Shown here: positions 245 to 44,008 of the stretch, piece after piece
Position numbering within the stretch: the first letter of the stretch is position 1
Layout: each line of letters begins with the position of its first letter
NCBI GenBank assembly: GCA_963681505.1
Contig: OY811991.1
Span: 5,246,555 to 5,310,554 of the forward strand
Direction: 5' to 3'
Origin: Eunapius fragilis
Lineage: Eukaryota; Porifera; Demospongiae; Spongillida; Spongillidae
DNA length: 64,000 nt
Made by a program: the position numbers and the translations under genes
The notes under the pieces: generated by a model
The model's input: the letters and a program-made list of their open reading frames with translations, nothing else
What the model was told of the DNA's origin: nothing
Database searches by the model: none

Positions 245-305
245 GACATAGAGGATAAGACAACCAGTGGAGATGCCTGTGCTCCCCTACCAATAATGAG
301 GCAAG
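245..305 (+). CDS. Linker exon B, ubiquitin-like/kinase gene copy 1
   Basis: A 61-bp exon between acceptor 'ttgtag' and donor 'gtgagc'. It reads DIEDKTTSGDACAPLPIMRQ plus one base. Near-identical exons with the same borders occur at 12943..13003 and 34955..35015, while the flanking introns differ much more. It enters in phase 0, matching the end of exon A, and leaves in phase 1, matching the two-base start (GC) of exon C, giving GGC. The role of the linker is unknown. The gene model is inferred from conserved splice sites and phase. Confidence 0.65.
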
Positions 306-469
306 GTGAGCAAACAAAGAATTATATGCTTGTGTTCTGTCATTTTTAGTTGCCAGTTCAATTTGACACATAGTTTAGAAACCATCATGAACTCAAAATA
401 ACCAACCACCCACACTTCTCATTTGAAAGGATAATAATCACCTGTCCACACTATTTAATTATGTAACAG

Positions 470-1163
470 TCAAGATATCTGGCACTCACAAGGAACCTGT
501 GTCAATTAAACAATTGTTCCGTAACTTACTTAAATCTGGCAGCCTGGGTCGCTTCTGTGATTGTCTCACAGCACAGCTGGAAAAGCGACTAGGAGAAAAT
601 GGAAGTGATGATGTCACGAGTGCTATGCATTTCTATACATTCTTGGCCCCATCAGGCAAATTAAGGTATATGAGTTAGTATTGAAAGTATGTTATTAAGC
701 AAGTTATTCATTAATTTGGAAATCAAGATGTAGCTCTTTTGCAAAGGCACTTTGGACCCATCCTTGAGAAGTGTGGTGTGGATGTCACTGTTGTTCTAAC
801 AGAGTGGAATTTGCTCAAGGACATAGTGTAGGTTCACCTTGTGTAACAGACTTAATGTATCAGTACATGGCCACTATATCCCGGTACGCTGAAACAATAA
901 AGGTCCTACCAAATAAGCCTGAGTGGGTGGATGTGTTCAGGACTGCCCAAGACTCTTGTTTAAATGTGCTCCAGCTGGTGGATCTGCTACTCTCCTTGCC
1001 TGCCAGCACTGCAGATTGTGAACAAGAGTTTAGTCTGACAAAAGTGATCAAGTCAGACTGGAGGAGCAGGCTTAGGGACACCGTGGTCACCGATTTGATG
1101 ACTGTACAGCTGCACAGTCCTGAAATTGGTGACTTTGACCCCACATCATCCATCCTTAGATAG
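470..1163 (+). pseudogene. hAT-family transposase-derived fragment (ZNF862-like), inserted in the intron of copy 1
   Basis: Two open pieces. The region 470..690 reads like the middle of ZNF862-type hAT-derived proteins. The piece at 771..1163 ends with a hAT C-terminal dimerisation region: LLLSLPASTADCEQEFS followed by a basic RSRL stretch and a leucine-rich tail. The equivalent intron positions in copies 2 and 3 lack it, so it is an insertion into copy 1. It is short for a transposase, lacks the DDE core, and is probably a dead fragment. A spliced chimaeric exon cannot be excluded, since 'taacag' precedes the first piece. Confidence 0.5.
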
Positions 1164-1260
1164 AAAGGGACCTGCAAACGCAGGCTATCGCTAAACATAT
1201 CTGATTCATTCTATTCAGATGATGGAATGGAGTCAGAATGCTAATACGATTGATCCTTAA

Positions 1261-2192
1261 CCTTTAATCTCCCGTCGTCCTACGCATAGGACGCAAGGTA
1301 AAATTAATTTTTAGCAAACTCATATGATCTAAGAACAAACCAAAATCTCATTGTACTGTAGAAATGGTTATTAATTCAGAAAATATTTTTACTTTCTTGC
1401 AATTCTTCAAAGATTGTCAAATACAATCAATACTGCATTGCTAAAAGATGTATTTGTGGTAAATCGCAAAGCAACTTAAAGTACTAAAAATTAAGTAATG
1501 CTGGGAAGATCAGAGCAACATGTTAAACGAAGGGGGTAGTAAGACAGGTCTTTTGTACTAAGCATATAAAAAAGTACATTGTAGATTTGGAAATTGCAAG
1601 CTCCACAAGCTTATGAGCGATAGGTATTTGTCAGACGCATGTTGCAGGAATAGCCAAGTGAATGGACAAAATCTTGAAAACGTACAATGTGTTTTCGGTA
1701 AAAATGGCAAAACCTATTAGAGTAAAAACACTGCCATAGAATGTATATAGTAGCACTTCAAAAATCATTCAAAAAAAGTTATACTTGTCGTACTTTGTTG
1801 TGTGACAATTAAATTCTCTACATAATGCATTTTTAAGAACCGTCCGTATCTGTTTATTAGCATCGTGTAACCAAGGGTGTGATTTTAAAAATAGATTGAC
1901 AATTGCAAAAATTAAGTAATGCTGGGAAGATCAGAGCAACATGTTAAACGAAGGGGGTAGTAAGACAATTAAATTCTCTACATAATGCATTTTTAAGAAC
2001 CGTCCGTATCTGTTTATTAGCATCGTGTAACCAAGGGTGTGATTTAAAAAATAGATTGACAATTGGTAAATTTAGCACGATAGACACATCAAACAGCAGT
2101 AGAGAAATGGATACCAAAAAACTGCATTTCTATTTATAATGAATTTTCAAATATTAGTCCTACGCGTAGGACTTGGACCTGGAGAATTAAGG
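1261..2192. mobile_element. Non-autonomous TTAA-flanked DNA transposon (piggyBac-like MITE)
   Basis: Flanked by TTAA at 1257..1260 and 2193..2196. Ends are CCTTTAATCTCC and GGAGAATTAAGG, imperfect inverted repeats, each followed inward by the palindrome CCTACGC(A/G)TAGGAC (near 1280 and 2158). TTAA duplication with CC-starting ends is typical of piggyBac-like elements. No transposase frame is present. Internally, 1487..1545 is repeated at 1909..1967 and about 1808..1902 is repeated at 1968..2062, so the element has an internal rearranged duplication. Confidence 0.7.
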
Positions 2193-2196
2193 TTAA

Positions 2197-2930
2197 AGTT
2201 ATACTTTTTATCCTACCCATTAAAGTATCATCAGCGTCATATATAACTCCTGTTGTTTTAAGTTGTTACCAACGGCAATGATCACTATGATTAAGAGAGA
2301 TGGAGAGATCGGTGTGGCTGATCAAAGTGGATTGAAAGATATGGATGCGTTGCAATCATTGCTGCTCGTACAATTTGAAGATAGGGGTATATACAATGCC
2401 GTGCCAATGACTCTTGAATGGGTCACAACAGAAATCTCCTGGCATTGGTTTAGCAAACGCCAAGCATGTACAAAAGAAATGATTGAGTGAGCGCGTATGC
2501 CTTATCAGGAAAAAAAAACTGATGGAGGGGCAAATACTACCTGTACCTGAAACCACAGTTTATATAGATATTATGCAATACTCTTGTATTAAGAAAGAAT
2601 GACGTTCTGATTTTCATCCCTATGTAGTTCCCAGAGATATTGCATACATGTACACTGAGTGGCGGCAGAAGGTATATAAGACTAGGAAGAAGGCAGGGGG
2701 CTCTAAAAGTGAGGGGTAATTAAATTAAATTCATGAAGGAAGCTTTTGTTGAAAGTAACCTTTTGTCAGCCGGAGGTTGGGGGGTGGGGGGGGGGGGGGA
2801 GGTGTATTTCGTAAACCATTAAGGTTATTAAACTTTTGTTTGGGCTAAAGTGGCATTCATATCAGGACACAAATATATGAGTGGTTGCACAAAAATCTAA
2901 AGCATAGCGTCCAACTTCAAGTTATCCTGG
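2197..2930. other. Non-coding stretch with a short unassigned ORF
   Basis: The longest frame is a 75-codon + strand ORF at 2263..2490 that resembles nothing I know and lacks splice-site support. A poly-G tract lies near 2780..2800. No gene is recognised. Confidence 0.4.
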
Positions 2931-3600
2931 CAGCCATGGAATGACCACTACAGCTTCTACATCCACCAGCTCTGTGGACAGTTCTCCTGCGTGATAACTT
3001 GGCTTGTCCAATGGTTTTCAGCAGGCGTCTCTTCACTAGCGGAACCATCCATTCATAGAACCCCACTCCTATAATGTATGAGATGTCATTATCTTGCTGA
3101 CAGATCTAAATGTCTTGCTATGTCTGATACCAAATGCCATGCTGGGCAGAGAATTGCCTCAAGCACTGGACAAATGCTTCTGCTGTTAAGTCTGGAACTA
3201 ACTCCAAATGGATGGTCTGAACAATGCACAACTTATCCACCTTATCACCATTCCTTAAATACAGAGGCCCTATGTAGTGGACACCAGTGAAACTAAACAG
3301 GAGTGACACTTGTGTTCTGAAGTCAAGCAAAGGAGGAGGTTTAGAGTTAAACTGTTTTCTGCAATCCACATTTACAACAGATACCATCAGGAAAGCTTTT
3401 TATCTGGAAAACACTAAATTGAAGGAGGATGTGTACATGATGTCCTTCTAAATAGTTGTTCTTAAGATGTATGCCTTTCCTTTCCTTGTGCATAACCACC
3501 ACCATCATTATTGCTGTCACCCAGAGGAAGTTTGCATATGCTTCATAAATAAAATACAGTCTACCTGTGATATTATCCAACTCAATATCCCCAGATAAAG
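2930..3600 (-). mobile_element. BEL/Pao LTR retrotransposon fossil, integrase region
   Basis: On the minus strand the segment near 3118..3387 resembles the integrase core of BEL/Pao (Pao-type) pol, including a FTGVHYIGPLY-like motif and a HLELVPDLTAEAF-like stretch typical of that family. It is a short broken remnant with no LTRs seen nearby. Fragments probably of the same family occur near 13700..13990, 17270..17640 and 35270..35500. Confidence 0.6.
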
Positions 3601-3762
3601 AAGTCTTGCACCCCCAACCTCACCCCCAACCTCACCCCCATTGGGGATTCTACCTTTTTTTCAGCCTTCGTTGCTTCCAAAAGGGCCGCTGCCTCTACCT
3701 TGTTGTCCTCACTGGAAAAGCTTGGCTCACGTGACCCTCAAATTGTTCTGATCTAGCTACGT

Positions 3763-4835
3763 ATGTATGGAAGCTTTACCAAGCTAGTTCACATCGCACG
3801 CTCCACACCTCCATCTTTGCCCTTTGAAGGGCTGCATTCCTTCGATTTACAGGTCCATCAAACCTTCACAGAGTGTCAAGCCATTGACACTTCTGATTGT
3901 GCTTGGCAGCAGGCCCAGTTACGTTTAATTCATGGGGGTATTGGGCTACGCTCACTTGCCTATCACTCACCTGCTGCCTTTATAGCTTCTGTCAGGATGG
4001 CAGGTGTTGCTTCCTCCTTGAACTGTTTTCCAGCAGAGGCTGTCAGCTTCTTTAACAGTCTTGTGCCCTTCGAAGGATATGCTCACCTTGAATTCCGTAT
4101 TGTCTTCTCCCTGTCAGCAGCATATTCTTTCTTCCCTGCTAGAGGACATAAAGTTTGCTCCCACCTAAGATATATACAGGAGATGAGCCTTGTCAGCAGG
4201 AGCTCCCCATGCATTAGCCTGGCTTTCTGTAATACCATCTCCAGGCCTGGGCCTAAGCCTAAACCCTAACGAGCACCAAATAGCCATCAAGTAGTGGTTA
4301 GGTCTAGCTAGACATATCCAATGGCTCTCCCTGTACTCTGTCCCCGAACAACTCTCCAGATCCCTTTAGACACCAAGCCTTAACTTTCCAGCACACTGGT
4401 GATGCCATTTTCAGGCACAATAATCTCCGAGACATAGTCCTGGAATTTTGTCACCATGCAGGTATCAGTGCTAAGGTTGAAGCAGGTAGTGGCCTAGGAC
4501 ATGACCTCCACCGAACATGCCCTGCAGACATCCTTGCTTCTAACTAGCTCTGTGGCAAGCCTGCTGCCTTCAATCTCACAGTGACCTCTTCGCTGAACCC
4601 TTCTGTTCATTTGGAAGCGAGTGCCACAGGAGGATCAGCAGCAGCAGCCGCAGAGCTTAGAAAACACTCTGGCAATGTTGGTAAATGCTCCAAGCTGGGG
4701 TGTGTTTGTATCCCCTTGGTGACAGAGTCCTATGGAGCATGGGGCGCAGAAGCCCAAGAGGCTTTCTCACACCTGGCCTCTTCACATGCAACAAACCAAT
4801 GTCATAGGTGGTTGCCAGACTATACGGTCACCTAA
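3763..4835 (+). mobile_element. Non-LTR retrotransposon (LINE-like) C-terminal remnant, copy 1
   Basis: The 168-codon ORF at 3763..4269 has a WQQAQLRLIHGGIGLRS-like stretch followed by a 'PAAFIASV' stretch, a pattern usual just downstream of the reverse transcriptase in many invertebrate LINE-like ORFs. The piece at about 4400..4835 has a second conserved block (GSGLGHD..., PADIL..., KPAAFNLTVTS) and ends 'CVCIPLVTESYGAWG'. The same block occurs at 16034..16483 (+) and 35919..36383 (-). The spacing PAD-x(n)-AxD/N-x-TV recalls a restriction-like endonuclease core, but that is inference. Stops break the frame. Confidence 0.5.
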
Positions 4836-5049
4836 TGTACTAGCCTAATATGCATGGTAGGTATACACACAATAAAACATTCAATGAAATGGTATAGTGT
4901 TGTTGCATTGTGTTGAAATGCTGAAACATAACCTACTAGAACCTCCATAACTATATTGCTTGATTATTGAAGTATGAAATAAGATTACCTCACATGACCA
5001 AACAAATGCATCTGACCTGTATTACATGCTCTGCACAAATTACATGTAG

Positions 5050-6218
5050 GCAAGGAGGAAGAACAGGCAGTGTTCAAACAACTGGAGGCAAGGGTCCAGT
5101 TCTTGGAGGCACAGTTGAGTGAAGCAAAACAGAATCTTGGAGAAGAGAAGAAACAGAGTGAGCAATACAGAACAGAACTAGATCACACTAGGGTGGAGCT
5201 AGTTCAATGTCAGGAAGTCCTAGGTCACACTGGGGTGGAGCTAGTGCAATGTCAGGAAGTCCTAGGTCACACTAGGATGGAGCTAGTGCAATGTCAGGAA
5301 GTCCTAGGTCACACTAGGGTGGAGCTAGAGGAGCTGCAGAAAGAGCACTCAACATGTAAAACATTCTGGATAGTACCACGTCATAAAATAACCATGCTTA
5401 ATAAGCAGCTGGGGGGAGGGGCATGGGGATATGTGGCTGAAGGTCAGTTCAGAGGTCAGCGGGTAGCTGTCAAGTGTGTACACGAGTCCATTATGGCTGA
5501 TAAGACCATCAAGAGAGTGTATCGTGAGATCTGTACAATGGCCCAAGTGTCCCACCCCAACCTGGTGAGGTTCATGGCAGCTGTGCTGGATGACCAGGGA
5601 GAACCCATGATCATCACTGAACTGCTGGACACCACACTGAGGAAGGCCTATGAGGACAACCTCCTTACCTTGCGGCAGTGTGTGGACGTATTCTGTGATG
5701 TTGCCTCTGCCCTCTGCTACCTCCATGAGCTTGAAGAGCCCATCATCCACAGAGATGTGAGCTCAGCCAATGTCCTTATGAAGGCTGTGGTTGGGGGAAG
5801 GTGGATAGCCAAACTGTCAGACTTTGGGTCAGCCAATTGGGCCAAGCAAGCCTCAACCATGGGAGAGGGTGCCATAGTGTACCTAGCTCCAGAGGCATTC
5901 CCCTCTCACCCATCTCAACACCGTAAAGCACCACCACAGACCACCAAGATTGATGTGTACAGTTATGGGATATTGCTCTGTGAGGTCGCACTGAGGGAGT
6001 TCCCTGATCCAGACCATCTGAATGAGACAAAGGAGAGGTTGAGGACCAAACACGTCCCCCTCCATTCCCTGGTGGTGAAGTGCACACAGGACCTACCTGA
6101 TAGACGTCCCACAATGGCTGCTGTTCTTAAAGAACTGCAGAGTACATGTATTGGAACACAGAAGATTGCACAGCAAAAATCATCAACAAAAGAACAAAGT
6201 GAATGTAATTTGAGTTGA
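5050..6218 (+). CDS. Coiled-coil + TKL-type protein kinase, terminal exon C of copy 1
   Basis: The exon opens after acceptor 'catgtag' with GC|AAG GAG GAA; there is no ATG near 5070 (that codon is GTG), so this is a downstream exon. Encoded in order: a charged coiled coil; about four 14-residue repeats (LGHTRVELVQCQEV type, 42 bp each, roughly 5180..5330); then a kinase domain. Visible motifs are the glycine loop GGGAWGYV, the beta-3 lysine in VAVKC, HRDVSSANVL, DFG, LAPEA in the activation segment and a late RRPTM motif. All catalytic residues look intact. Closest type is tyrosine-kinase-like (TKL), so probably a Ser/Thr or dual-specificity enzyme. The C-terminal tail (TKEQSECNLS) is shared with copy 2. 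Linked by phase to exon B at 245..305. Confidence 0.85.
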
Positions 6219-6840
6219 AACCAATCATTGTAGAGGTTATGTAATATATAGCTAGCATTGTAACTGTCCATTAAGTTTTGATGCAATTAGTTTGTTCATT
6301 TATTTTTTGTCTTCCAAAGTGTAGCCAGCGTTATGTAAATGAGGCTTATAATTGTACAATGGGGAATGGAGGCGTATAGCTTTCCTGAAACACAAGGGAA
6401 ACATGTGCAGCCTTTCAGGTAGATGTACTATAAAGGCTACAGCTGCAGGTAATGGAGTAATTAACAGTGGGTGTGTAGTCCCATGCTAAAACTGTGTATC
6501 AGATATCCTATAAATGTGCATGATGAGAACTTTTAAATGATTATCGTGAGTCTAGCTGAGCGCCGGTTTAATAAACTTACCAGAGTGAGACATTCATATA
6601 ACAAGCAGTCCGGTGAGGGATAAAGGTTACTAGGGTTTAGTGCTAGGGTGGAGCCAAAGGCGAATCAACTTTTCACCCCCTCTCCGAATCCGCCCTCAAA
6701 TTGCACCCGTCCTTCCCTCCTGACACTCTTCATTGAAAGCTTAATTTTGGGCGGCGCCTTCGGTGCCACACTCTTTTCCCCTGTAAGTACCACTCTGTGT
6801 AACCATGCCCACAAGTGAATTCGACTTTTAGTTCCCATGC
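6219..6840 (+). other. 3' flank of kinase copy 1
   Basis: Similar to 15714..16000 downstream of copy 2 (shared 'gaaaccaatca', 'ttttgatgcaattagtttg', 'gcttataattgtacaatgggg'), so the duplicated unit extends past the stop codon. No ORF of note. No clear AATAAA close to the stop. Confidence 0.5.
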
Positions 6841-7260
6841 TCCAGATGGATTGATATGCTAAGTGTGCAGATGCTACACCAGATCTTCATGCATGCCCAC
6901 TATGCATGCAAGTTATCTGTCTTACTGATGCATGGTCAGCCAATATCTCTGCAACTTTGCCTGTGCTTTTTTTTCAGTTCATCATTTTCTTATCCAGCTT
7001 TGGTTCTGTGGCTTTGCATTCCTAAGTGCTCTCCTGTGGTCTGCCTTTATGCCCACCAAATGGTCAGCAACTTCTCAACATTTCTTCCTTCCGCCAGGAG
7101 AGAAAGCAAAAGTACATAAAGGAAGTAGAAGTCACCTTGACCCCATTTGTCCTTCAGTGGATGGACTGCTGCGACCACACTTGGCTACTGCTCTGTCTTA
7201 CAAATGCAGTTATGTCAGCACGGCTTGCTTTTGCTGGTGTTTGAGCTGTGAGCTTATGTC
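6841..7260. repeat. Dispersed repeat segment shared with 16980..17240 and (inverted) 18600..18740
   Basis: 6841..7070 matches 16990..17230 in direct orientation; 7080..7200 matches 18600..18740 in reverse. The short frames inside (for example 6856..7119) have no recognisable domain. The context beside BEL/Pao remnants at 17270 suggests the segment belongs to that fossil family, but this is inference. Confidence 0.4.
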
Positions 7261-7280
7261 TAAGAGGGTCACACGGCCCA

Positions 7281-9092: not shown

Positions 9093-11306
9093 ATGCAGAT
9101 TTTTGTGGTGACACAAACCACCATAACTTTGGAGGTCAAACCAAGTGATACCATTGGAAGTGTGAAGGCCAAGATTCAGGATAAGGAAGGTATTCCACCA
9201 GACCAACAGCGACTTGTCTTTGTGGGCAAACAGCTGGACGATGGTCGTACACTGAGCGACTACAATATCCAGACAGAATCAACCCTTCATCTTGTTCTGT
9301 ATTTATGTGGTGGTATGCAAATCTTTGTGAAGACAATAACTGGCAAGACCATCACCTTGGAGGTTGAACCAGGTGATACCATAGACAACGTGAAGGCCAA
9401 GATCCAGGACAAAGAAGGTATTTCCCCACACAGCCAGCGACTCATCTGCACTAAGGAGCTGAAAGATGGTTGTCCACTGAGTGATTATAACATCCGGAAT
9501 GAGACTACCCTTCACCTTGTCCTTTGCTGGTGTAGTAGTATGAAAATCAATGTGAGGATGCATACTGGCAAGACCATCACCTTGGATGTCAAGCCTAGCG
9601 ATACCATTGGCAAACTAAAGGCCAAGGTCCAGGACAATAAAGGTATTTTACCAGGCCACCAAATACTCACCTTTGCTGGCAAAATGCTAGAAGATGGTCA
9701 TAGAGTGTGTGATTATGATATCATGATGGAGTCAACCCTTCACCTTATTGTTCGTCAGCATAGTCATATGATCAACGTGAGGATACCAGGCAGGACCATC
9801 ACTTTGGAGGTTGAGCCAAGTGATACCATTGACAAAGTAAAGGCCAAGATCCAGGACAAAGAAGGTATTCCACGAGGACAACAAGTACTCACCTTTGCTG
9901 GCAAAGAGCTGGGAAATGGTTGTACACTACATAGTATCATATGGGAGTTTACCTTACGTGTTATTATGGAGATCTTTGTGATGACAATAACTGGTAAAAC
10001 TATCACCTTGGTGGTTGATCCACGCGATACCATTGACAAAGTGAAGACCAAGATCCAGGACAGGGAAGGTATTCCACCACACAGACAGCGACTCATCTTT
10101 GCTGGCAAACAGCTGGAAGATGGTCGTAAACTGAGCGATTATAATGTCCAACGGGAGTCAACCCTCCATCTTATCCTTCATTGGTCTTGTGGTGGTATGA
10201 AGATCTTTGTGAAGACACAGACTGGTAAGACCATCACCTTGGAGGTTATTCCACGCAATACCATTGGCAATGTGAAGGACATGATCCAGGACAAGGAAGG
10301 CATTTCACCAAGCCAACAGCATCTCATCTTTGCTGGCAAATAGCTGGAAGATGGCCATACACTGAGCGATTATAACATCCACCGTGAGTCGACCCTCCAT
10401 CTTATCCTTTGTCAGTGTTATGATATGCAGATCTTTGTGAAGGCACATATTGGCAAGACCATCACCTCCATCACCTTGGTGGTCAAGCCTAGCAATACCA
10501 TTGATGACATGAAGGCCATGATCCAGGACAAGGAAGGCATTCCACCAGGCCAACAGCAACTCATCTTTGCTGGCAAAGAGTTGGAAGATGGCTGTACACT
10601 GAGTGATTATAATATCAATCGTGAGTCGACCCTCCATCTTATCCTTTGTCAGCGTTATGATATGCAGATCTTTGTGAAGGCACATATTGGCAAGACCATC
10701 ACCTCCATCACCTTGGTGGTCGAGCCTAGCAATACCATTGATGACGTGAAGGCCATGATCCAGCACAAGGAAGGCATTCCACCAAGCCAACAGATACTCA
10801 TCTTTGCTGGCAAACAGCTAGAAAATGGTCATACACTAAGTGATTATAATACACCAAAGGAGTTAACCCTTCACCTTGATGGTATGATGCTTATCTATGT
10901 GAAAACATTGACTGGTAAGACCATCACCTTGGAGGTTGAGCCTAGCGATACCATTGACAAAATGAAGGCCAAGATCCAGAACAAAGAAGGTATTCCACCA
11001 GACCAACAACGACTCACCCTTGCAGGCAAAGAGCTAGAAAATGGTCATACACTAAGTGAGTATAATATCCTGAAGGAGGTAACCCTTCATCTTGGTGGTA
11101 TGATGCAGATCTATGTGAAGACACTGACTGGTCAGACCATCACCTTGAAGGTTGAGCCTAGCGATACCATTGACAACGTGAAGGCCAAGATCCAGGATAA
11201 AGAAGGTATTCCACCAGACCAACAGACACTCACCACCATCCTGAAAGATGATCTTACACTGAAAGACTACAACTTTGAGAGTGGTGAAGTACTTCTACTA
11301 ATGAAT
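9093..11306 (+). CDS. Ten-module ubiquitin-like array, exon A of ubiquitin-like/kinase gene copy 2 (one in-frame TAG)
   Basis: Starts at ATG CAG (MQIFV) and encodes ten ubiquitin-like modules of about 66-80 residues joined head to tail. Ubiquitin hallmarks recur: [52 protein letters not shown]. The modules are much more divergent than polyubiquitin: most lack a C-terminal Gly-Gly (ends such as CWCSS, CQRYD), while the first and fifth end CGG, and Lys63 is replaced in most modules. The C-terminal module is shortened and ends '[10 protein letters not shown]', after which the sequence is donor GTAAGC in phase 0. A TAG at 10341..10343 replaces the CAG expected in FAGK-Q-LEDG of module 6. That makes copy 2 a possible pseudogene, or a product starting later (ATG at 10425). 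It joins exon B at 12943 by phase. Confidence 0.8.
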
Positions 11307-12942
11307 GTAAGCCTAGGTTTTTTTTAAATTGAATATTGTTCTGATCTATGTACTAAAATTCAAAGCTCTAGTTAAGTTGTACCAAAAGCCCAGGTTAAAA
11401 TAAGGTGATGGCAACATATTAGTATCCTAATATATCTAACAGCAGGTGGCATGCAGACCAAAGTTGGTCAGCCCTTGAAGTTATAGTTGATGCCAAATGT
11501 TATTATGTCAAGAGACAAGCATTTGAGCTGCAGTTTTGTGATGTACATGTAAAGATTGTTCTGTGCAGTAATATCCCAAGTGAGAAAAATTCGTGCCAAA
11601 TCAAGTCCTGTTTTAACCGATTAAGTCCTGTAACCGCAAATTCGCGTCAAATAGTTGTTTACAGCTACCAACGTATTTTGGGGGACATGACCACAAACCA
11701 CAGAAAGATTATACCAATTTGAAATCTTTCTTGAACACAGCTTCAGCCGGTATCGTTGGATTACCTCTTCCTGACACAAAACATTTTTGTGACGACATTT
11801 AAGATCAAATAACCTCTACATAACAAACCATATTTAGGCCTTAATCGGTTAAGCATAGTAATTTCCTCCACATGGTGCATTTATTCTGGTTCTTATGATA
11901 CCAAAAATCATCAGTTTAATATATAAATACTTGTAAGCACCATCCATCATTACATTAAAATCCATATAGCTGATGCAATGAAAATTCAATTATCGGTGAT
12001 TCACAATATTTGCATAAGAATTCAATCATGCAATGACAAAAAAATCATCTACAAAATCAAGAATTGATTTGCTGTCTTTTTCTCGTGTCTTTTTATTGGA
12101 CAACTCAATGCTGCATAATCATAGTCCTATTATGTAGATACTGTCTATGATGAAGGTGCACTTAGCCTAAGTATGCAAGAACATACTGTAATGTCTTCAG
12201 CAAAACACCATCGGTAGCGAATGACAGCATATATTTTTCAATCTCTATATATCACAAATCATTTTATACGTCTTACTGATTGGAGTGTACCAAAGTGGTT
12301 GTTTAGGTCCTAAACTCTGTTTAATGTTTTGGTAAATGGGATTGAAATGTGTCTAATAACATGGAGCATTTATGCCTGGAATAGCGTACTCACCTCTATT
12401 CAAACACATCTATCTGATCTAACCTCAATGATGCTAAACTGATATGGTTCCTGGTTCAAGCATATATATATAAAGGATGGTAGGTGGACTGCAATCACTC
12501 AGTCATAATAGCATACCACTGCTGGTCTGAATTGCTTTCCCACCCACCACTCCACCTGTGCATTGACTGTACTTTGTACACGTTTGCTGTGTTCTTGCTT
12601 GAATATCAATGGTAGGCGGAACCCTTCGGGCTTCTACACCCTGACCTAATCACTTAACGTTGACCAGCGTCATGGTGTGGCAAACTGGCTGACCCAATGG
12701 TAACCAGCGTTACCCCTTGGTACCAGTCAGGCTCAGTGGTGGGGGTCAGCACCTCTATGGCACACCCGACTGGGTGGCTGCTGCCTGCCCCCTTATGGGC
12801 AAAACTATCGATCATAGTCAGACTCACAACTGGGGTTAAAGCCTATTAACAGCCAGCATGAGAGAGCATTTAGATAGCCAAATATGCATGTATGCATTCA
12901 AAAAATTGATCAGGTATCATTATTGCCCCAAACCTGTTGTAG
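11307..12942 (+). other. Intron A-B of copy 2
   Basis: No gene seen. Opens with donor GTAAGCCTAGG, ends with acceptor 'ttgtag'. Parts match 34130..34954 in copy 3 (for example 'gcagcaggtggcatg'-like text near 11445 and 'atgatgaaggtgcacttagcctaagtatgcaagaa' near 12150). The stretch 12540..12830 has no counterpart in copy 3 and looks inserted. Confidence 0.5.
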
Positions 12943-13003
12943 GACATAGAGGATAAGACAACCAGTGGAGATGCCTGTGTTCCCAAACCAATAATGAGGC
13001 AAG
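12943..13003 (+). CDS. Linker exon B, ubiquitin-like/kinase gene copy 2
   Basis: 61 bp, acceptor 'ttgtag', donor 'gtgagc'. Reads DIEDKTTSGDACVPKPIMRQ plus one base, so it differs from copy 1 at two residues. Phase 0 in, phase 1 out. Confidence 0.65.
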
Positions 13004-14544: not shown

Positions 14545-15713
14545 GCAAGGAGGAAGAACAGGCAGTGTTCAAACAACTGGAGGCAAGGGTCCAGTTCTTG
14601 GAGGCACAGTTGAGTGAAACAAAACAGAAACTTGGAGAAGAGAAGAAACAGAGTGAGCAGTACAGAACAGAACTAGGTCACACTAGGGTGGAGCTAGTTC
14701 AATGTCAGGAAGTCCTAGGTCACACTAAGGTGGAGCTAGTTCAATGTCAGGAAGTCCTAGGTCACACTAGGGTGGAGCTAGTGCAATGTCAGGAAGTCCT
14801 AGGTCACACTAGGGTAGAGTTACAGAAGCTGCAGAAAGTGCACTCAACATGTAAAACATTCTGGATAGTACCACGTCATAAGATAACCATACTTAATAAG
14901 CAGCTGGGGGGAGGGGCATGGGGATATGTGGCTGAAGGTCAGTTCAAAGGTCAGCAGGTAGCTGTCAAGTGTGTACATGAGTCCATTATTGCCCTACATA
15001 CCATCAAGAGAGTGTATCGTGAGATCTGTACAATGGCCCAAGTGTCCCACCCCAACCTGGTGAGGTTCATGGCAGCCGTACTGGATGACCAGGGAGGACC
15101 CATGATCATCACTGAACTGTTGGACACCACACTGAGGAAGGCCTATGAGGACAACCTGCTTACTTTGCAGCAGTGTGTGGACGTATTCCGTGATATAGCC
15201 TCTGCTCTCTGCTACCTCCATGAGCTTGAAGAGCCCATCATCCACAGAGATGTGAGCTCATCCAATGTCCTTATGAAGGCTGTGGTTGGGGGAGGGTGGA
15301 TAGCCAAACTGTCAGACTTTGGGTCAGCCAATTGGGCCAAGCAGGCCTCAACCATGGCGGAGGGTGCCATAGTGTACCTAGCTCCAGAGGCATACCCCAC
15401 CCCTCCATCTCTGCTCCATAGAGGACTACCACCACAGACCACCAAGATTGATGTGTACAGCTATGGGATAATGCTCTGTGAGGTCGCACTGAAGGAGTTC
15501 CCTGATCCAGACCATCTCCATGTTACAAAGGAGAAGATGAGAACCAAACATGTCCCCCTCCATTCCCTGGTGGTGAAGTGCACACAGGACCTACCTGATA
15601 GACGTCCCACAATGGCTGCTGTTCTTAAAGAACTGCAGAGTACATGTATTGGACAGGAGATTGCACAGCAAAAATCATCAACAAAAGAACAAAGTGAATG
15701 TAATTTGAGTTGA
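14545..15713 (+). CDS. Coiled-coil + TKL-type protein kinase, terminal exon C of copy 2
   Basis: Same architecture and borders as copy 1: opens GC|AAG after the acceptor, coiled coil, four 14-residue LGHTRVELVQCQEV-type repeats, then the kinase domain. GGGAWGYV, VAVKC, HRDVSSSNVL, DFG and LAPEA are all intact. Differences from copy 1 include IIALHT in place of IMADKT after the beta-3 strand, and HVTKEKM in place of NETKERL late in the domain. The stop is shared with copy 1. Phase links it through exon B to the ubiquitin-like array at 9093..11306. If the TAG in exon A kills the long product, this exon could be a preserved kinase in a damaged gene. Confidence 0.85.
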
Positions 15714-32134: not shown

Positions 32135-34129
32135 ATGCAGATTTTTGTGGTGACACAAACCACCATCACCTTGGAGGTTGAGCCAAGTGATACCATTGAC
32201 AATGTGAAGGCCAAGATCCAGGACAAGGAAGGTATTCCAACAGACCAACAACGACTCATCTTTGCCGGCAAACAGCTGGAAGATGGTCATACACTATGCG
32301 ACTATAATATCCAGACAGAATCGACCCTCCATCTTGTTCTGTATTTGTGTGGTGGTATGCAGATCAATGTTATTACACTGACTGGTCAGACCATCACCTT
32401 GGAGGTTGAGCCAAGTGATACCATTGAAAATGTAAAGGCCAAGATCCAGGACAAGGAAGGTATTTCACCACACAGACAGCGACTCATCTGTAGTAAAGAG
32501 CTGAAAGATGGTTGTCCACTGAGTGATTATAACATCCGGAATGAGACTACCCTTCACCTCGTCCTTTGCTGGTGTAGTAGAATGAAGATCTATGTGAGGA
32601 TGCATACTGGCAAGACCATCACCTTGGAGGTTGAGCCAACTGATACCATTGACAATGTGAAGGCCATGATCCAGTACAATGAAGGTATTCCACCAGGCCA
32701 ACAAATACTTACCTTTGTAGGCAAAATGCTAGAAGATGGTCGTAGAGTGTGTGATTATAATATCATGATGGAGTCAACCCTTCACCTAATAGTTTGTCAG
32801 CTTAGACATATGATCTATGTGAGGACACATACTGACAAGACCATCACCTTGAAGGTTGAGCCAAGTGATACCATTGGCAACGTGAAGGCCAAGATCCAGG
32901 ACCAGGAAGGTATTCCACCAGACCAACAGCGACTGAAGTATCATGGCATACAGCAGAGTGATGGTAATACACTGCATAATATCATGTGGGAGTTGACCCT
33001 TGATGTTGTTATGAAGATCTATGTGAAGACACTGTCTGGCAACATCATGATCATCTTGGAGGTCAATTCAAGCGATACCATTGACAACGTGAAGGCCAAG
33101 ATCCAGGACAAAGAAGGTATTCCACCAGACCAACAACGACTCATCTTTGCAGGCAAACAGCTGGAAGATGGTCGTATACTGAGCGAGTATAAATCTATCC
33201 AAAACGAATCGATCCTCCATCTTCTTCTTCGTACACGTGGTGGTATGCAGATCTTTGTGAAGACACAGACTGGCAAGACCATCACCTTGGGGGTTTGGTC
33301 TGACCATAACGGAAGCGATACCATTGACAACGTGAAGGCCCTGATCCAGGACAAAGAAGGTATTCCACCAAACCATCAGCGACTCATCTTTCAAGGCAAA
33401 TGCCTGGAAGATGGACAAACAGTGAGAGATTATAACATCCACCGTGAGTCGACCCTCCATCTTATCATTCGTCAGTTTTATGATATGCAGATCTTTGTGA
33501 AGGCACATACTGGCAAGACCATCACCTCCATCACCTTGGTGGTCGAACCAATCAATATCATTGATGACGTGAAGGCCATGATCCAGCACAAGGAAGGTAT
33601 TCCACCAAGCCGACAGATACTCATCTTTGCTGGCAAACAGCTAGAAAATGGTCGTAAACTAAGTGATTATAATATTCCAAAGGAGTTAACCCTTCACCTT
33701 GATGGTATGATGCAGATCTATGTGAAAACACTGACTGGTCAGTCCATTACCTTGGAGGTTGAGCCAAGCAATACCATTGACAACGTGAAGGCCAAGATCC
33801 AGAACAAAGAAGGTATTCCACCAGACCGTCAGCGACTCATTTTTGCCGGCAAAGAGCTAGAAAATGGTCATACACTAAGTGAGTATGATATCCTGAAAGA
33901 GGTAACCCTTCACCTTGGTGATATGATGCATATCTATGTGAAAACACTGACTGGTAAGACCATTACCTTGGAGGTTGAGCCTAGCGATACCATTGACAAG
34001 GTTAAGGCCATGATCCAGGACAAGGAAGGTATTCCACCAGACCAACAGACACTGACGACCATCCTGAAAGATGATCATACACTGAAAGACTACAACATTG
34101 AGAGTGGTGAAGTACTTCTAATAATGAAT
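32135..34129 (+). CDS. Nine-module ubiquitin-like array, exon A of ubiquitin-like/kinase gene copy 3
   Basis: Starts at ATG 32135 (MQIFVV; the upstream codon at 32129 is GTG). It stays open for 665 codons to donor GTAAGC after ATG AAT, in phase 0. Nine ubiquitin-like modules follow one another: [43 protein letters not shown] and STLHL motifs recur. Module 1 ends CGG and module 5 ends RTRGG; the others end without Gly-Gly, so most could not be conjugated. Two modules carry insertions (TSITLVV; a WSDHNGS loop). Reading past the donor would add a hydrophobic tail ending KFKALV and a stop, which I regard as intron read-through. Compared with copy 2 it has one module fewer and no internal stop. 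Confidence 0.85.
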
Positions 34130-34954
34130 GTAAGCCTAGGTTTTTTTTTATTGTATATTGTTCTGATCTATGTACCAAAATTCAAAGCTCTAGTTTAGTG
34201 TTTAGTTGTACCAAAAGCCCCGGTTGGATTAAAATAAGGTGATGACAACATCCTAACATGTCTAACAGCAGGTGACATGGCAGACCAAGTTGGTCAGCCA
34301 TTTGAGTTATAGTTGATGTTATTATGTCAAGAGACAAGTGTCTGAGTTGCAGTGTGGTGACTGATGTGATTGTTCTGTGCAGCAGTAATAATCTTAAGAT
34401 CCCTAGCGAGAAAATTTCATGCCAAATAACGTCCTGTTTTAATCCAAAGTTCATTCAATATATAAATACTTATAAGCACCATCCACCATTACATTAAAAT
34501 CCATTTAGCTGATGCAATGAAAATTAAATTTACAAGCAATTATCGGTGATTGAGAATGTTTGCATAAATATTATTGAGCACCTCAATGGTGCATAATCAT
34601 AGCCCTATTATGTAGATACTGTCTATGATGAAGGTGCACTTAGCCTAAGTATGCAAGAATATACTATAATGTCTTCAGCATAACACCATCGCGAATGACA
34701 GCATATATATCTTTCACATACATGCGTGTTGCTGGCTCCAGCTGGTCTGTACTTTGACCCTTATGTGTGTATATATTATGGGTAGCAAAGTTAAAAAGTT
34801 CAGTTGATGAGTTCATTACAAACTGATGGTTTAATCAATCTCTATACAATGTTATACCACAAATCATGAAATTAGTTGAGGCACCTTACTGATTGGAGTG
34901 CCAATACGCATGTATGCAAATTGATTATCATTATTGCCCCAAATCTGTATGTAG
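34130..34954 (+). other. Intron A-B of copy 3
   Basis: Donor GTAAGCCTAGG, acceptor 'tatgtag'. Homologous in blocks to the copy 2 intron but shorter. No gene. Confidence 0.55.
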
Positions 34955-35015
34955 GACATAGAGGATGTGACCACCAGTGGAGATGCCTGTGCTCCCCAAC
35001 CAATAATGAGGCAAG
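34955..35015 (+). CDS. Linker exon B, ubiquitin-like/kinase gene copy 3
   Basis: 61 bp, acceptor 'tatgtag', donor 'gtgagc'. Reads DIEDVTTSGDACAPQPIMRQ plus one base. Same phases as copies 1 and 2. Confidence 0.65.
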
Positions 35016-36569: not shown

Positions 36570-38430
36570 TGTGATGAATGTACAGGACTGGTGCGGGCGG
36601 GCTGATGTATTTTATGTACTGGACTGGTGTGATGTATGTACTGGACCACCTCACATAATTTCCATGGACTTAAATGGGAGGCTTTGCATTTGGTCATATC
36701 AAACATCCTCTGTGTGTGTTTTTTTGTATGTACATGGTCCAGAGTCTCAGGATGGAAGCCTTGATAGTGACAGGGAATATTATTTCTACCCTATCTCAAA
36801 AGATTTGTAAGGACTGGGCCACTGTAAAGTTTATATGCTACACACATGGCTTCATATCATATTAACCCGTGCTTCAGAACTTAGGATGGTATACTGAGGG
36901 CAATGCCACACCCCCTTCCCTCCTCCATCATACAACATACCAGTCCGCTACATAGAACACACCAATCCACTGCCAATTCAATACACCAGTCCTGTTTCTA
37001 CAACATATGTGGTGGCAATCAGATAGGCCAGGACTCAGGAACTAGTGAGAACACACCCACCCAAGATCAGAGCACTTTATGTCATTTAAAGTTGGAGTGG
37101 GTTTCTGGATTATAGTGCCACTTCCAAAAGGCAATCCAGTACAATCCAGTACATGCAACGCCAATCCAGTATATATAACTCATCAGTCCAGTATGTACTT
37201 ATACATGTATAACACATAAGACAATTGGTATGTTGTATGAACGGAAATAGCATGGTGTATCGGATTGGTGTGATGCATGTACTGGTCTGGTGTGTTGTAT
37301 GTACTGGACTGGAGTGTTGTACGTACTGGACTGGTGTGTTGCATGTACTGGACTGCTGTGTTGCATGTACTGGACTGGTATGTTGTATGTACTGGACTGG
37401 TGTGTTGCATGTACTGGTCTGGTGTGTTGTATGTACTGGACTGGAGTGTTGTACATACTGGACTGGTGTGTTGCATGTACTGGACTGCTGTGTTGCATGT
37501 ACTGGATGGTGTGTTGTATGTACTGGACTGGTATGTTGTATGTACTGGGCTGGTGTGTTGCATGTACTGGTCTGGTGTGTTGTACGTACTGGACTGGTGT
37601 GTTGCATGTACTGGACTGGTGTGTTGCATGTACTGGACTGGTGTGTTGCATGTACTGTTCTGGTGTGTTGTATGTACTGGACTGGTGTGTTGCATGTACT
37701 GGACTGGTGCGTTGCATGTACTGGTCTGGTGTGTTGTATGTACTGGACTGGTGTGGTGTATGTACTGGACTGGTGTGTTGTATGTACTGGACTGGTGTGG
37801 TGTATGTACTGGACTGGTGTGTTGTATGTACTGGACTGGTGTGTTGTACGTACTGGACTGGTGTGTTGCATGTACTGGACTGGTGTGTTGTATGTACTGG
37901 ACTGGTGTGTTGCATGTACTGGACTGGTGTGTTGTATGTACTGGACTGGTGTGTTGCATGTACTGGACTGGTGTGTTGGATGTACTGGACTGGTGTGGTG
38001 TATGTACTGGACCGGTGTGTTGTATGTACTGGACTGGTGTGTTGTATGTACTGGACTGGTGTGTTGCATGTACTGGACTGGTGTGTTGTATGTACTGGAC
38101 TTGTGTGTTGTATGTACTGGACTGGTGTGTGACGTATGTACTGGACTGGTGTGTTGTATGTACTGGACTGGTGTGGTGTATGTACTGGACTGGTGTGTTG
38201 TATGTACTGGACTGGTGTGGTGTATGTACTGGACTGGTGTGATGTATGTACTGGACTGGTGTGTTGTAGTACTAGACACCAGTATACCATCCTCTTTCTA
38301 GTTCTGAAGCCATGGGTAAATATGAAGTCATGTGTGTGAATAGCTCAGCATATAAACTTTACAGTGGCCCTGTCCTTACAAATCTTTTGGGATAGGGCAG
38401 AAATAATATTCACCGGGCTTCCATCCAAAG
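36570..38430. repeat. Inverted-repeat unit enclosing a 20-bp minisatellite
   Basis: 36755..36900 and 38279..38425 are inverted repeats (for example 'aggatggtatactg' against 'cagtataccatcct'; 'caaaagatttgtaagga' against 'tccttacaaatctttt'). Between them lies the minisatellite. The flank at 36440..36720 also recurs directly at 38775..39080 (shared 'aaactcaagtccgctgtgtg', 'acttaaatgggag'). This was probably built by local inversion and duplication within the intron of copy 3. Confidence 0.65.
37236..38270. repeat. 20-bp minisatellite (gtgttgtatgtactggactg), about 50 copies
   Basis: Tandem 20-mers with few variants (tgcatg/tgtatg, ggactg/ggtctg). Because 20 is not a multiple of 3 the repeat cycles through frames, and no frame on either strand happens to contain a stop, giving long Cys/Trp/Tyr-rich or Thr/His/Ser-rich ORFs that are not genes. 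Isolated units of the same motif lie at 36580..36645 and 38910..39010, and reverse-oriented ones at 36935..37200. Confidence 0.9.
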
Positions 38431-38496
38431 ACCTACAGACGTATTCACTCGCAACACACATCTACACACAAAGCACGCAGCTACACACACACACAC

Positions 38497-38544
<48 letters not shown>

Positions 38545-39587
38545 GCACACAGCTACATATACACACACAGGTGATTGTAGTGTTAGATTTGGTGAACCAC
38601 AATCATGATGTTCAACAGTCCCAAGGTCCCAGAGTGTTACCTCAGTTCATACAATAGAAAGATAGCTATTTCAGTGACATCATGTTGATCAAAAATATCT
38701 GTACACTGGAGCCCCATAAACAGAAGTGGTCTGAGTGACAGGGTACTCTACTAAGGTTCAGCAGTTACTGGTTATTGTGTAGAGCTCAGAACATCTTTGC
38801 CTTTGTAATACCAATATTGCTTGTTCTGAAACTCAAGTCCGCTGTGTGGGCAGGCTGGCGATAATCCATACACCATCGTTCGCACTCACGCAAGTGTGTC
38901 AGGACTGGTGCAGGTGTTATACTGGGCTGGTGTGTTGCATACACTGGACTGTAGCTGGTTGTGTGATGTATGTACTGGTATGGTGTGTTGTATGTACTGA
39001 ACTGGTGTGATGTAGTATTGGACTAGTGTGCAATTCCACGCCACTTAAATGGGAGATTTTGCGTTTGGTCATAGCAAACATTGTGTGTGTGTATGTGTGT
39101 GTGTGTGTACATGTGCATGTGTGGTGTGTATTGTGATATACATATGTGCATGTGTTTACATGCATGAGCAACACACATCAAGCCAGCTGCTGCTCACCTC
39201 ACAGTACAGTGAGAGCTGTTGTCAGGAAGCGCACCATGTACAGTGTATGATCTAGCTCCCTTTGCTTGAGAGGTCCTGCTTGTTGATACTTATTGAGCGC
39301 CACTTGATAACATGCAAAAATGTTAAAAACACATTCACACAAATATACACATGCAGATACATGCCCACATACTCCAGACACATGCTATACACACATGCAC
39401 ATACTGTACACATGTGCACACACACACGCAACATACATGTACGTGAACAAACATCTCTAGCTTGAGAGGTCCAGTTCCAATCTATTATCTGTCCAGCTTG
39501 CCCAAATACTAGACTATTTGCCCATGTGAGGGGAAGAAACAAGTGGCACAAATGCACACGAATACAATACACACACACACACGCACA

Positions 39588-39650
<63 letters not shown>

Positions 39651-41460
39651 AACACACACACGAGGAGGAACTACACACACAAGGAGGAACTATGAAATTA
39701 ATACTAATTGCACAAGAAATATATGTAGCAGTTTCACCAAAAGAAGCTCCACCAGCCATCTCCACCCCTCCAAACCTGGCTACCTTCAGCTCTCCAACAC
39801 ACCTCCCTCCCTCATACAGGTGGACACATCCATGTAGGGTCTACTTCATAGCGGAAAAACCACTTACTGTTAACATCTCTTCCTGATGTGGAAAATCTTG
39901 ATGAGGGAACTGATCGGTTGCCAGCTTGTTTCCATTGTGGTTCCACTTCACACATTACCATAGCCATGTGGGCATGGCTAAATTTAGAAAGGATTGTGTG
40001 AAAGTGAAACTGAACATTATCCAGCAAGAATATTATTGCACAGTTCTCGGCTATGACCACATGCAGCATTCAAGTGCATAATGCTCACCCAGAATACACA
40101 AAACCGCAAAATGGGGCTGGGCACCCTAGGGACCCACGTACAGTGCGCAGACACTCAGTCCAGCCCTGAGGTCCCAGTGTTTCACTGGTAGCTTGTAGAT
40201 ATTGCTCCCCAACACAACCAATTTTTTGGAAGGATGCCAGTCCACAGACTTCATTCTACTGGTAGAGGAAGGTGAAGAGATAAGAGGTGAGGTGAGGAAG
40301 GAGTGGTTAGGAGAGAGGGAGAGCAGGGAGGAGGCAAAGAAGAAACAAGCAAGGTAACAGGAAGTGAGATGAGGGGTTACAATAGGGGAGAGGAAAACAC
40401 CAACAGGTTGTTTGGCTACTGGTACTGACTACTAGGCCCAGCCACCATGCATGCAAAGCTGATTTCCAATGCAAAGAAGCATGTACAAAGCACCCATTAT
40501 TGATTAGCGAGTACAACATCACTCCCACCCCACCATCACCCCTAACTCTCCCGTCAGGTCATGAATCATACTGTTCTGATACTTTGATTTCTGCTACAAC
40601 CGCACTTAACACCACACATAACATGTGCAAAGAGAACCAGAGTGTGTGCATTACCTCTGAGTATTATGAATTCCTCTGAGCAATGGATGAAGTTGAATAT
40701 CCTCACCATACCATCGTCAGAGCATGTGACCAGCTTTACATCAGTTGGAGAAACTGCAAAAAGATGGTGGGACTTATACATATATCTCTCCAGGCATCTA
40801 TTTGGGACGATAAACATGAATACACGCCACAAAAAAGCAGCACCGCCGTAATGATATACCCAGGTTTTTGGATTGAAATCATCAGTTGTCCGAGCATGTC
40901 TGCAACCTTCAAACGGCCTTACAACAGTGCTGGTATTTCTATGGCTAGTATCCATTTTTTATCCCAAATAGACTCCACGGCCAGAGGGTTTACAGTAACT
41001 AACACACATCAAGCCAGCTGCTGTTCACCTCACAGTACAGGTGAGCTTGTCGTTAGGAAGCAGCTCATTGGTCTCGTCTGATGAACATCTTGAATCCCCC
41101 CAGTCATTTCCTAGGACAAAGCCATATATCCTCTGACTCTGCATGACCAGAAGAGCAATAACATATGCACAAATGCACACACACCAAATGCACACAAATG
41201 CATGCACATAAACACATATATTCTCAACATACACATGCACACCCACACACAATGTACAGTGTATGATCTAGCTCCCCTTGTTTGAGAGGTCCAGCTTGTT
41301 GATACTTGGACTATTGAGCCCCACTTGATAACACAGAAACACTCCACGCACACAAATACACACATTCATACTCCAGACTCACACACACACACTGTACTCC
41401 AGACATATATCACACACACACACTTACACACAACATCCACCCCCCCCCCCCCCCCCCCAT
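38431..41460. repeat. Microsatellite-rich part of intron B-C, copy 3
   Basis: (CA)n tracts at about 38483..38542, 39571..39645 and 41385..41430, a (TG)n tract near 39080..39110, and a poly-C run near 41440..41458. The text 'acacacatcaagccagctgctgctcacctcacagtacag' occurs at 39170 and 41000, and 'gtacagtgtatgatctagctccc' at 39239 and 41255, so a segment of about 2 kb has been duplicated in part. Frames over CA tracts are spurious. Confidence 0.7.
40600..40960 (-). pseudogene. WDR33-like WD40 gene fragment
   Basis: On the minus strand, an exon-like block of about 107 bp (about 40656..40762) lies between acceptor 'atctttttgcag' and donor 'gtaatg'. It reads SPTDVKLVTCSDDGMVRIFNF, then IHCSEEFIILRG. 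Vertebrate WDR33 (polyadenylation factor) has [32 protein letters not shown] at this point. Flanking sequence contains only vague WD40-like text and no further exons, so it seems an isolated, decayed piece of a WDR33 gene carried into this intron. Confidence 0.5.
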
Positions 41461-42536
41461 TTAATGCTTCGCCATTTATCGTAGTTTTGTATCATGCATG
41501 CAGGCCCAAAGTTGACTGCCTTGTATCGCGGGCGCTCTCCCCCACTTGAGGCCCAGGTGGCCCGCTCTTTTGTGTCGAACCCGAAAGTATAAACATACAA
41601 CATCCCAGCTTTATGTCGATCACGCGTTCTTGTGGGCTACACTATGTATGCTAGCTATGGTTGTTACGCACATGTACAACACCTAAGCACCTCAGTTGTA
41701 GCATACCTGAGTGAGTCTGATTCAGGGCAGGCTTTTCCCACAGTGACAGGCTGCAGAACCTGTATAAAAATGCCCATTACATCATGCAATCATTGCGAAG
41801 AATTAATAATGGAGACATTCAGTAACTCACACTCAGGAACCTTGAGAAGTAGGGGAAAGAGTGTTTTATAGTATCAGACACCTGCCTCGATGATCTGGCT
41901 AACATTGTAATAAATAGCTTATACTACATCTACAACTATCACAGAAAAATGCACAATGTCTTGACAAAACCCAAATTTGTACACATGTGTCTATGGACGT
42001 TTTTTTTTAGGGCCGTGGAACCTACAGATAGACCCATAGTGTAATATGGTCATCATTATATTTTTGACGGTATTGCAAGCCACCCGTATTGTATGTCATA
42101 ATTCAAGCCGCCACACTGTATTAGGAACATTTGCCGTTTAATGCATACTGTAAGAATGCATTTAAGTGTCATACTTATCTATGCATCGTTTTATCAAGAT
42201 CATGAATATTAATTAGCCTCCCAAATTTTTGTGATTGACTACGGCCATGAACCACACCGTTGACACGGAACCAACGTAGAACTGTAGATCGTTGTGCTCT
42301 CATTCCACCGTACCGCGTGATAAAGAGATAAGCGATCCGTTTCTCCATTGTCCCTCCAGACGCTAGTGAAGTTTTATTAATGACATTCATCAACCCAACA
42401 GGTTCAGATTAATTCCTGCTGAACAGAAATGTATTTTGTTCCATACATTTCAATGGACGCTTGCACGCAGACGTTTACAATGATGCGTCAGGAATACATA
42501 ATGAGCGTCCAAAATTTCTGGCAATGTTTTCAATTA
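41460..42536. other. Unassigned stretch in intron B-C, copy 3
   Basis: Short frames only, no domain recognised. No clear transposon ends. Confidence 0.4.
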
Positions 42537-42941
42537 CCCTAATAGCCTTAAACCTAGCATGCACTGGTCAACTTCTGGGCTTCTTGTTGCCTGCAACTCT
42601 GATATAAAAGGTTCAGTAAACTGATTGCTTACTACCTTTAACTCATCTTCATTTGAGTGTCAGCCATTATCTCACTTATTACATCCGGGGAGGGGTGGGG
42701 GGGGGGGGGGGGGGGAGGGGAGAAGAGTCTCAAACCAGGCGGTCACCTCATGCAATCTCTGAAATATAAATAAAATTCAATGAAATGGTATAGTATTGCT
42801 ACATTGTGTTCAAATGCTGAAAAAAACTCTATAACTACATTGCTTGATTATTGCAATAGGAAATAAGATTACCTCACATGACCAAACAAATGCAGTTGTA
42901 CATCTGACCTGTATTACATGCTCTCCATAAATTACATGTAG

Positions 42942-44008
42942 GCAAGGAGGAAGAACAGGCAGTGCACAAACAACTGGAGGCAAGGGTCCAGTTCTTGGAG
43001 ACACAGTGGAGTGAAGCAAAACAGAAACTTGGAGAAGAGCAGAAACAGAGTGAGCAGTACAGAACAGAACTAGGTCACACTAGGGTGGAGCTAGTTCAAT
43101 GTCAGGAAGTCCTAGGTCACACTAGGGTGGAGCTAGTTCAATGTCAGGAAGTCCTAGGTCACACTAAGGTGGAGCTAGAGGAGCTGCAGAAAGAGCACTC
43201 AACATGTAAAACATTCTGGATAGTACCACGTCATATGATAACCATGCTTAATAAGCAGCTGGGGGGAGGGGCATGGGGATATGTGGCTGAAGGTCAGTTC
43301 AGAGGTCAGCAGGTAGCTGTCAAGTGTGTACATGAGTCCATTATGGCTGATAAGACCATCAAGAGAGTGTATCGTGAGATCTGTACAATGGCCCAAGTGT
43401 CCCACCCCAACCTGGTGAGGTTCATGGCAGCTGTGCTGGATGACCAGGGAGGACCCATGATCATCACTGAACTGCTGGACACCACACTGAGGAAGGCCTA
43501 TGAGGACAACCTCCTTACTCTGCGGCAGTGTGTGGACGTATTCTGTGATGTAGCCTCTGCCCTCTGCTACCTCCATGAGCTTGAAGAGCCCATCATCCAC
43601 AGAGATGTGAGCTCAGCCAATGTCCTTATGAAGGCTGTGGTTAGGGGAGGGTGGATAGCCAAACTGTCAGACTTTGGGTCAGCCAATTGGGCCAAGCAAG
43701 CCTCAACCATGGCGGAGGGTGCCATAGTGTACCTAGCTCCAGAGGCATACCCCACCCCCCCATCTCTGCACCATAGAGCACCACCACAGACCACCAAGAT
43801 TGATGTGTACAGTTATGGGATATTGCTCTGTGAGGTCACGCTGAGGGAGTTTCCTGATCCAGACCATCTGGATGAGACAAAGGAGAAGCTGAGAACCAAA
43901 CATGTCCCCCTTCATTCCCTGATGGTGAAGTGTACACAGGACCTACCAGACAGACGTCCCACAATGGCTGCTGTTTTTAAAGAACTGCAGCAAATGATTG
44001 GAAAATAA
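42942..44008 (+). CDS. Coiled-coil + TKL-type protein kinase, terminal exon C of copy 3
   Basis: Opens GC|AAG after acceptor 'catgta-g' at 42941, then a coiled coil, three 14-residue repeats (one fewer than copies 1 and 2) and the kinase domain. GGGAWGYV, VAVKC, HRDVSSANVL (His at 43598), DFG (43670..43678) and LAPEA are intact. It ends ELQQMIGK, without the 20-odd residue tail of copies 1 and 2. The upstream text 42537..42690 matches 14155..14320, so the same B-C intron is present but stretched to about 7.9 kb by repeats. Joined to exons A and B the product would be about 1040 residues. Confidence 0.85.

Follow-up and report, generated by a model that had tools for sequence, protein, structure and literature searches.

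A predicted sponge gene family in which arrays of ubiquitin-like modules are spliced to a TKL-like kinase

On chromosome 21 (C21) of the sponge Eunapius fragilis (OY811991.1, assembly odEunFrag1.1, 5.79 Mb) three elements recur as one unit: an exon A coding for head-to-tail ubiquitin-like modules, an exon B of 61 nt and an exon C coding for a protein kinase. As judged from the comparison of the copies, A, B and C are very probably three exons of one gene, for which a fused protein is predicted. The wider reading, which is considered probable, comprises this gene, its roughly ten paralogs on C21 and an array that would act as a diversified binding arm clustering the kinase, whereby both the clustering and the binding of partners by the array are what we infer. 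The stretch of DNA that was analysed, hereafter the window, has a length of 64,000 nt (C21:5246555-5310554) and holds the exons B and C of a first unit (U1) and the exons A, B and C of two further ones (U2 and U3; Table 1).

Table 1. Features of the units U1 to U3, in window coordinates.
Feature	Position	Strand	Remarks
Exon B of U1	245..305	+	61 nt, phase 0 to 1; tblastn/blastn and splice sites
Exon C of U1	5050..6218	+	two bases, coiled-coil-like stretch (by eye), kinase, stop
Exon A of U2	9093..11306	+	10 ubiquitin-like modules; in-frame TAG at 10341-10343
Donor GTAAGC 3' of U2 exon A	11307..11312	+	
Exon B of U2	12943..13003	+	of 667 stretches, the sole one both kept in 8/8 units and frame-compatible
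Exon C of U2	14545..15713	+	coiled-coil-like stretch, kinase, stop
Exon A of U3	32135..34129	+	9 ubiquitin-like modules, 665 codons, open
Donor GTAAGC 3' of U3 exon A	34130..34135	+	
Exon B of U3	34955..35015	+	tblastn/blastn and splice sites
Exon C of U3	42942..44008	+	coiled-coil-like stretch, kinase, stop

The arrays of U2 and U3 both terminate with ATG AAT/GTAAGC, i.e., with a phase-0 donor, exon B is directly preceded by AG and directly followed by GTGAGC in U1 to U3, and exon C opens in all three with GC/AAG after TGTAG. The introns thus delimited measure 1636 and 1541 nt in U2 and 825 and 7926 nt in U3, and for the latter a product of 1040 residues (665 + 375) is predicted from A, B and C. 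Pfam assigned nine stretches of the U3 array to ubiquitin (PF00240, E 4.8e-192) and the three exon C proteins to the protein kinases (PF00069/PF07714), next to one filament match below the cut-off. The sequence-only reading had described this anatomy, namely ubiquitin modules closed by a phase-0 GTAAGC donor, a 61-nt exon leading from phase 0 to phase 1, and a terminal exon with two leading bases before a coiled coil and a kinase, all in the same order, strand and phase in each window copy, and the splice sites and domain matches bear it out, the coiled coil being a coiled-coil-like stretch recognised by eye. Only one of the three window units, U3, is open from the first ATG of the array to the kinase stop. 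The U2 array carries an in-frame TAG, and the U1 array, which starts at about C21:5244027 and is therefore not part of the window, comprises four modules, the first one being truncated and out of frame.

Instead of three copies, the chromosome carries ten related loci, of which eight are grouped at 4.99-5.29 Mb and the remaining two lie near 2.1-2.2 Mb. These were found by searching the whole genome (218,937,333 bases, 24 contigs) with ubiquitin, the exons B and C and the terminal part of exon A as queries, whereby match counts for large families are to be read as "at least". All three exons are contained in U1, U2, U3, U4, U6 and U8, whereas two partial units have open frames, U5 consisting of array and exon B without a kinase and U7 of exons B and C without an array. 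U9, which is located about 3 Mb away at 2.12 Mb, possesses exon A, an exon B of 73 nt and an exon C whose kinase is frame-shifted near its end. The tenth locus, U10, is a kinase with an array (C21:2193401-2194270) lying 33 kb upstream; within the sequence examined, which does not include 2176000-2186999, this array could not be linked to the kinase, and it was not counted as a unit. Fully open frames were identified in four of the ten loci (U3, U4, U6 and U8). Exon B was detected as DNA in eight copies in the genome, each of them on C21, seven with an array upstream (the exception is U7) and seven with exon C downstream (the exception is U5); all eight matches run into intron flanks, and a retrocopy with joined exons was not found among them. 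Further array fragments locate to C21:5125392-5125673 and C21:5218531-5218620, and a kinase fragment to C21:5020987-5021163. Tandem and segmental duplication of genes is a known feature of sponges (PMC7385117), hence the cluster as such is ordinary, while its architecture is not.

The splice model was evaluated by a pseudo-exon control, for which all 667 AG..GT stretches of 40-90 nt between exons A and C of U2 were considered and required to match the seven other units without gaps at 75% or more, with AG and GT kept. Two of them pass in 8/8 units, namely 12943-13003 and 12950-13003, i.e., exon B and a stretch inside it, a result that is not to be taken as a probability because the units are paralogs; only the former is open in phase 0 and has the length of 3n+1 that exon C requires. 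With the splice patterns located by pattern search, the comparison with U3 yielded no gap within exon B and none within the first 150 nt of exon C, as against 14 gaps in the opening 60 nt of intron 1 (13 of them not multiples of three). In the flanking intron stretches, between 2 and 26 gap events were counted each, most of which would shift a reading frame. The alignment of the end of exon A contains five gap events, two of which are not multiples of three; nevertheless the frames are open up to the donor. Nucleotide identity at the exon ends does not tell exon from intron, with mean values of 0.788 for the last 150 nt of A and 0.845 for the first 60 nt of intron 1, and of 0.966 for the last 60 nt of intron 2 and 0.958 for the start of C.

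In the distant unit U9, the introns match those of U2 and U3 over 41 nt and 21 nt only, the latter at the last acceptor, while its phases are unchanged (A donor phase 0, exon B phase 0 to 1, two bases at the C acceptor) and the additional 12 nt of its exon B leave the frame intact. The 41-nt stretch is positioned about 58 nt before exon B and is 85% identical between U9 and U3 (within the U3 intron at window 34130-34954), other intron sequence being hardly alignable; it is possibly a splicing element. Of nine arrays compared, seven end with ATG AAY/GTAAGC, and U9 has ATG/GTAAAT at the same domain end; at the end of the U10 array no such donor was found. Beyond the A donor, read-through terminates differently between the units. 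Exon C needs an upstream start because its coiled-coil stretch is without ATG in six of seven units. Among 19 kinases inspected by eye, 12 (U1-U4, U6-U10, C14a, C14b and C14d) clearly have an acceptor with two leading bases in front of the kinase exon, which is plausible in those of C1 and C5, while a clear phase-1 acceptor was not found in this way for the C14c, C14e, C3, C11 and C2 kinases. Taken together, the conserved splice sites and phases, the pseudo-exon control and U9 lend good support to the fusion of array and kinase that had been proposed from the window alone.

The modules of the arrays appear to have retained the ubiquitin fold. For 57 modules from U1-U6, U8 and U9, positions were grouped into core, patches and surface after the structure of ubiquitin. 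Of the 785 residues aligned to core positions, 745 were found to be the same as in ubiquitin and 780 to be hydrophobic. The tail positions 72-76 are identical in only 84 of 210, with 75 gaps; the RLRGG motif occurs in none of the 57 modules and GG in 19. The positions of the I44 patch are identical in 132/221 versus 755/1120 for the other surface positions, L8, I44 and V70 are jointly kept in 13 modules, and in the ranking of all 76 positions V70 and L8 belong to the 11 least kept, with I44 and H68 in the lower third. Since the core is conserved and the I44 patch is kept no better than other surface, the fold is seen to be kept while the signalling surface is not specially kept. Per module, 39-70 of 76 residues are identical to ubiquitin, the U8 modules being nearest with 61-70. 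The boundary of exon A coincides with the end of the last ubiquitin strand. When the two terminal modules of U3 were modelled with AlphaFold, they displayed a ubiquitin-like pattern of strands and helix (mean pLDDT 83.7, pTM 0.55), which is less pronounced halfway through the last module. Other arrays exist in this genome: canonical polyubiquitin arrays are found on C13, a very divergent array resides on C16 (L038 507-2150), in which four modules were recognised with 29-37 of 76 residues identical, and the frames of two ubiquitin-like arrays on C4 (L036 358-1488; L037 197-1087) share, by eye, a tail past the last module.

Exon C is predicted to encode an active protein kinase, as the catalytic motifs K, E, HRD, N, DFG and APE are invariant in six aligned kinases. 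CTR1, TNNI3K and the MLK proteins are TKL kinases, and the best 60 of 364 matches to solved structures are headed by CTR1 (1.4e-19) and TNNI3K (2.8e-18), with MLK4 and MAP3K9 further down; tyrosine kinases score nearly as well (Fyn, 3.5e-17), and the exon C kinase is here termed TKL-like only. TBK1 or IKK kinases are not among these best 60. In the kinase tree, nine C21 kinases form one clade (99/99), followed by the C1 and then the C14 kinases, a topology with long branches flagged and bootstrap values not settled. The preceding coiled-coil-like stretch, repeat-rich and read by eye, spans 74 to 172 residues across seven units in steps that are multiples of 14, and 88-172 residues in the fully open copies. 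CAP-Gly matches are located upstream and on the same strand of 4 of 12 C14 kinase matches (55% identity or more): L026 carries two, one above and one under the Pfam cut-off, L028 has one under it, and the coordinates place two further ones (C14:2555281 and C14:2591801) at 7.8 and 8.8 kb from two other C14 kinases. Ubiquitin arrays were not detected in stretches of 10 kb for five C14 kinases and the C1 kinase. The CAP-Gly matches upstream of the sister-group kinases on C14 suggest that the kinase module may take different N-terminal arms.

Selection was estimated separately for each part. The array yielded dN/dS values of 0.37-0.50 (five pairs computed of 21 possible), the kinase domain 0.25-0.74 (21 pairs) and the coiled-coil stretch 0.44-1.65, i.e., no clear purifying selection, and for the amino acids of exon B purifying selection was not detected by Ka/Ks over 28 pairs.

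Three other explanations were weighed. If two adjacent genes had been duplicated as a block, the array gene would end soon after exon A, and the kinase gene would start either at the ATG of exon B or in an unseen first exon. Consistent with this, exon B possesses an in-frame ATG in 8/8 close copies, a few codons before the B-C junction, where U9 has ATG ATG, so that the kinase could start there; in U1, U4, U6 and U8 the frame runs into a stop two codons past the A donor, hence their unspliced RNA would encode the array alone; and U5 and U7 each retain one half, both halves being open. An array gene ending at this point would, however, need no donor, yet one is kept in seven of nine arrays and, in altered form, in U9, though not in U10. 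Likewise, an acceptor and an open, gap-free frame 5' of the ATG are present in exon B of 8/8 units, and the length change of U9 in that very part is a multiple of three. Two separate genes are considered improbable. Only slightly less improbable, and still unlikely, is the view that the array represents a built-in, uncuttable linear ubiquitin chain, which would recruit ubiquitin-binding proteins or serve as bait for deubiquitinases. It is in line with the head-to-tail arrangement known from linear chains, with the nearness of the U8 modules to ubiquitin and with the missing RLRGG, and it had been put forward from the window sequence; the poor conservation of the L8, I44 and V70 positions, which is no better than that of other surface, and the loss of the tail do not favour it. 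The description of the chain as non-conjugatable stands in the sense that RLRGG is absent and that the array is predicted to continue into exon B.

The third explanation, a functionless cluster of decaying pseudogenes, would account for the damaged frames, i.e., the TAG in the U2 array, the defective first module of U1 and the frameshift near the end of the U9 kinase, as well as for the halves missing in U5 and U7 and the additional array and kinase fragments nearby. Four units are fully open, though, core residues are far better kept than surface residues, and dN/dS is below 1 in array and kinase, for which reason this explanation is regarded as highly improbable.

The preferred reading, that of one gene with an array as binding arm, would work as follows. 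Each open copy is predicted to encode 4-9 modules of ubiquitin fold, a linker of about 20 residues, the coiled-coil-like stretch and the C-terminal TKL-like kinase. The protein would be cytosolic, its array would not be cut into free ubiquitin and its modules may constitute a diversified binding arm, with the coiled coil pairing the chains. Binding of a partner could then cluster the kinases and allow for their mutual phosphorylation, whereby the paralogs may differ in their binding partners. A more far-reaching and rather doubtful idea holds that these are cytosolic receptor-like kinases, in which interchangeable N-terminal arms (ubiquitin arrays on C21, CAP-Gly on C14) are spliced to one coiled-coil-kinase module; the arrays would be a recognition arm that has diversified and that perhaps protects the ubiquitin system from microbes, with turnover by gene birth and death, and this so far in this sponge only. 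Few known proteins are as constrained as ubiquitin, and here its fold has apparently been copied many times, with its core retained and its surface freed, and wired to a kinase. If an mRNA exists, nature would have supplied in this family a series of binding modules derived from ubiquitin, on which the gain of new sensing arms by kinases could be tested directly in an early lineage of animals.

The window contains 41 open reading frames of at least 150 aa in all, and a Pfam scan of ten others among these gave a match for one. An F-box (PF00646, E 8e-07) is found in an open stretch of 511 residues that begins 700 nt past the U3 kinase (window 44708-46243, + strand). In intron 2 of U3, a 22-nt unit is repeated in tandem about 46 times, which gives long open reading frames on both strands (window 37262-38277), and about 47 copies of a GC-skewed 30-nt tandem repeat, open in several frames, were found at window 54667-56073.

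Relatives outside this genome were not found in viral contigs, and GTDB genomes gave only three remote bacterial matches (25-31% identity). To our knowledge, no protein carries a long ubiquitin-like array on a TKL-like kinase, and a ubiquitin-array kinase was not found in the literature covered, which left aside most subscription papers and all bioRxiv preprints. The earlier statement that no such family is known was nevertheless too broad, as ubiquitin-like domains and kinases are combined in TBK1/IKK-epsilon and in plant UbDK/PI4K-gamma. The nearest solved kinase sequences among the best 60 matches, CTR1 and TNNI3K, possess, like MLK, other N-terminal domains and, as far as we know, no ubiquitin arrays. 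The plant UbDK/PI4K-gamma proteins, reportedly the subject of Galvao 2008, likewise unite a ubiquitin-like domain and a kinase in one chain. Two plant relatives are described in a further article (PMC6792133). The kinase of the plant proteins is of the phosphoinositide 3/4-kinase kind and has no array, whereas exon C belongs to PF00069/PF07714. TBK1 unites a protein kinase with a ubiquitin-like domain and with coiled coils in a single chain (PMC8994244), and in this TBK1/IKK-epsilon resemble the sponge genes. Their order is nevertheless a different one, with an N-terminal kinase, a single ubiquitin-like domain and then the coiled coil, whereas in the sponge genes 4-11 modules come first, followed by the coiled-coil-like stretch and, at the end, the TKL-like kinase. 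With polyubiquitin genes, finally, the arrays share the head-to-tail arrangement of ubiquitin modules; in a canonical polyubiquitin reading frame of the same genome (L002), however, L8, I44, V70 and RLRGG are present in 5/5 modules, each 75/76 identical to ubiquitin, whereas RLRGG is absent throughout the kinase arrays, which sets these apart from a polyubiquitin precursor.
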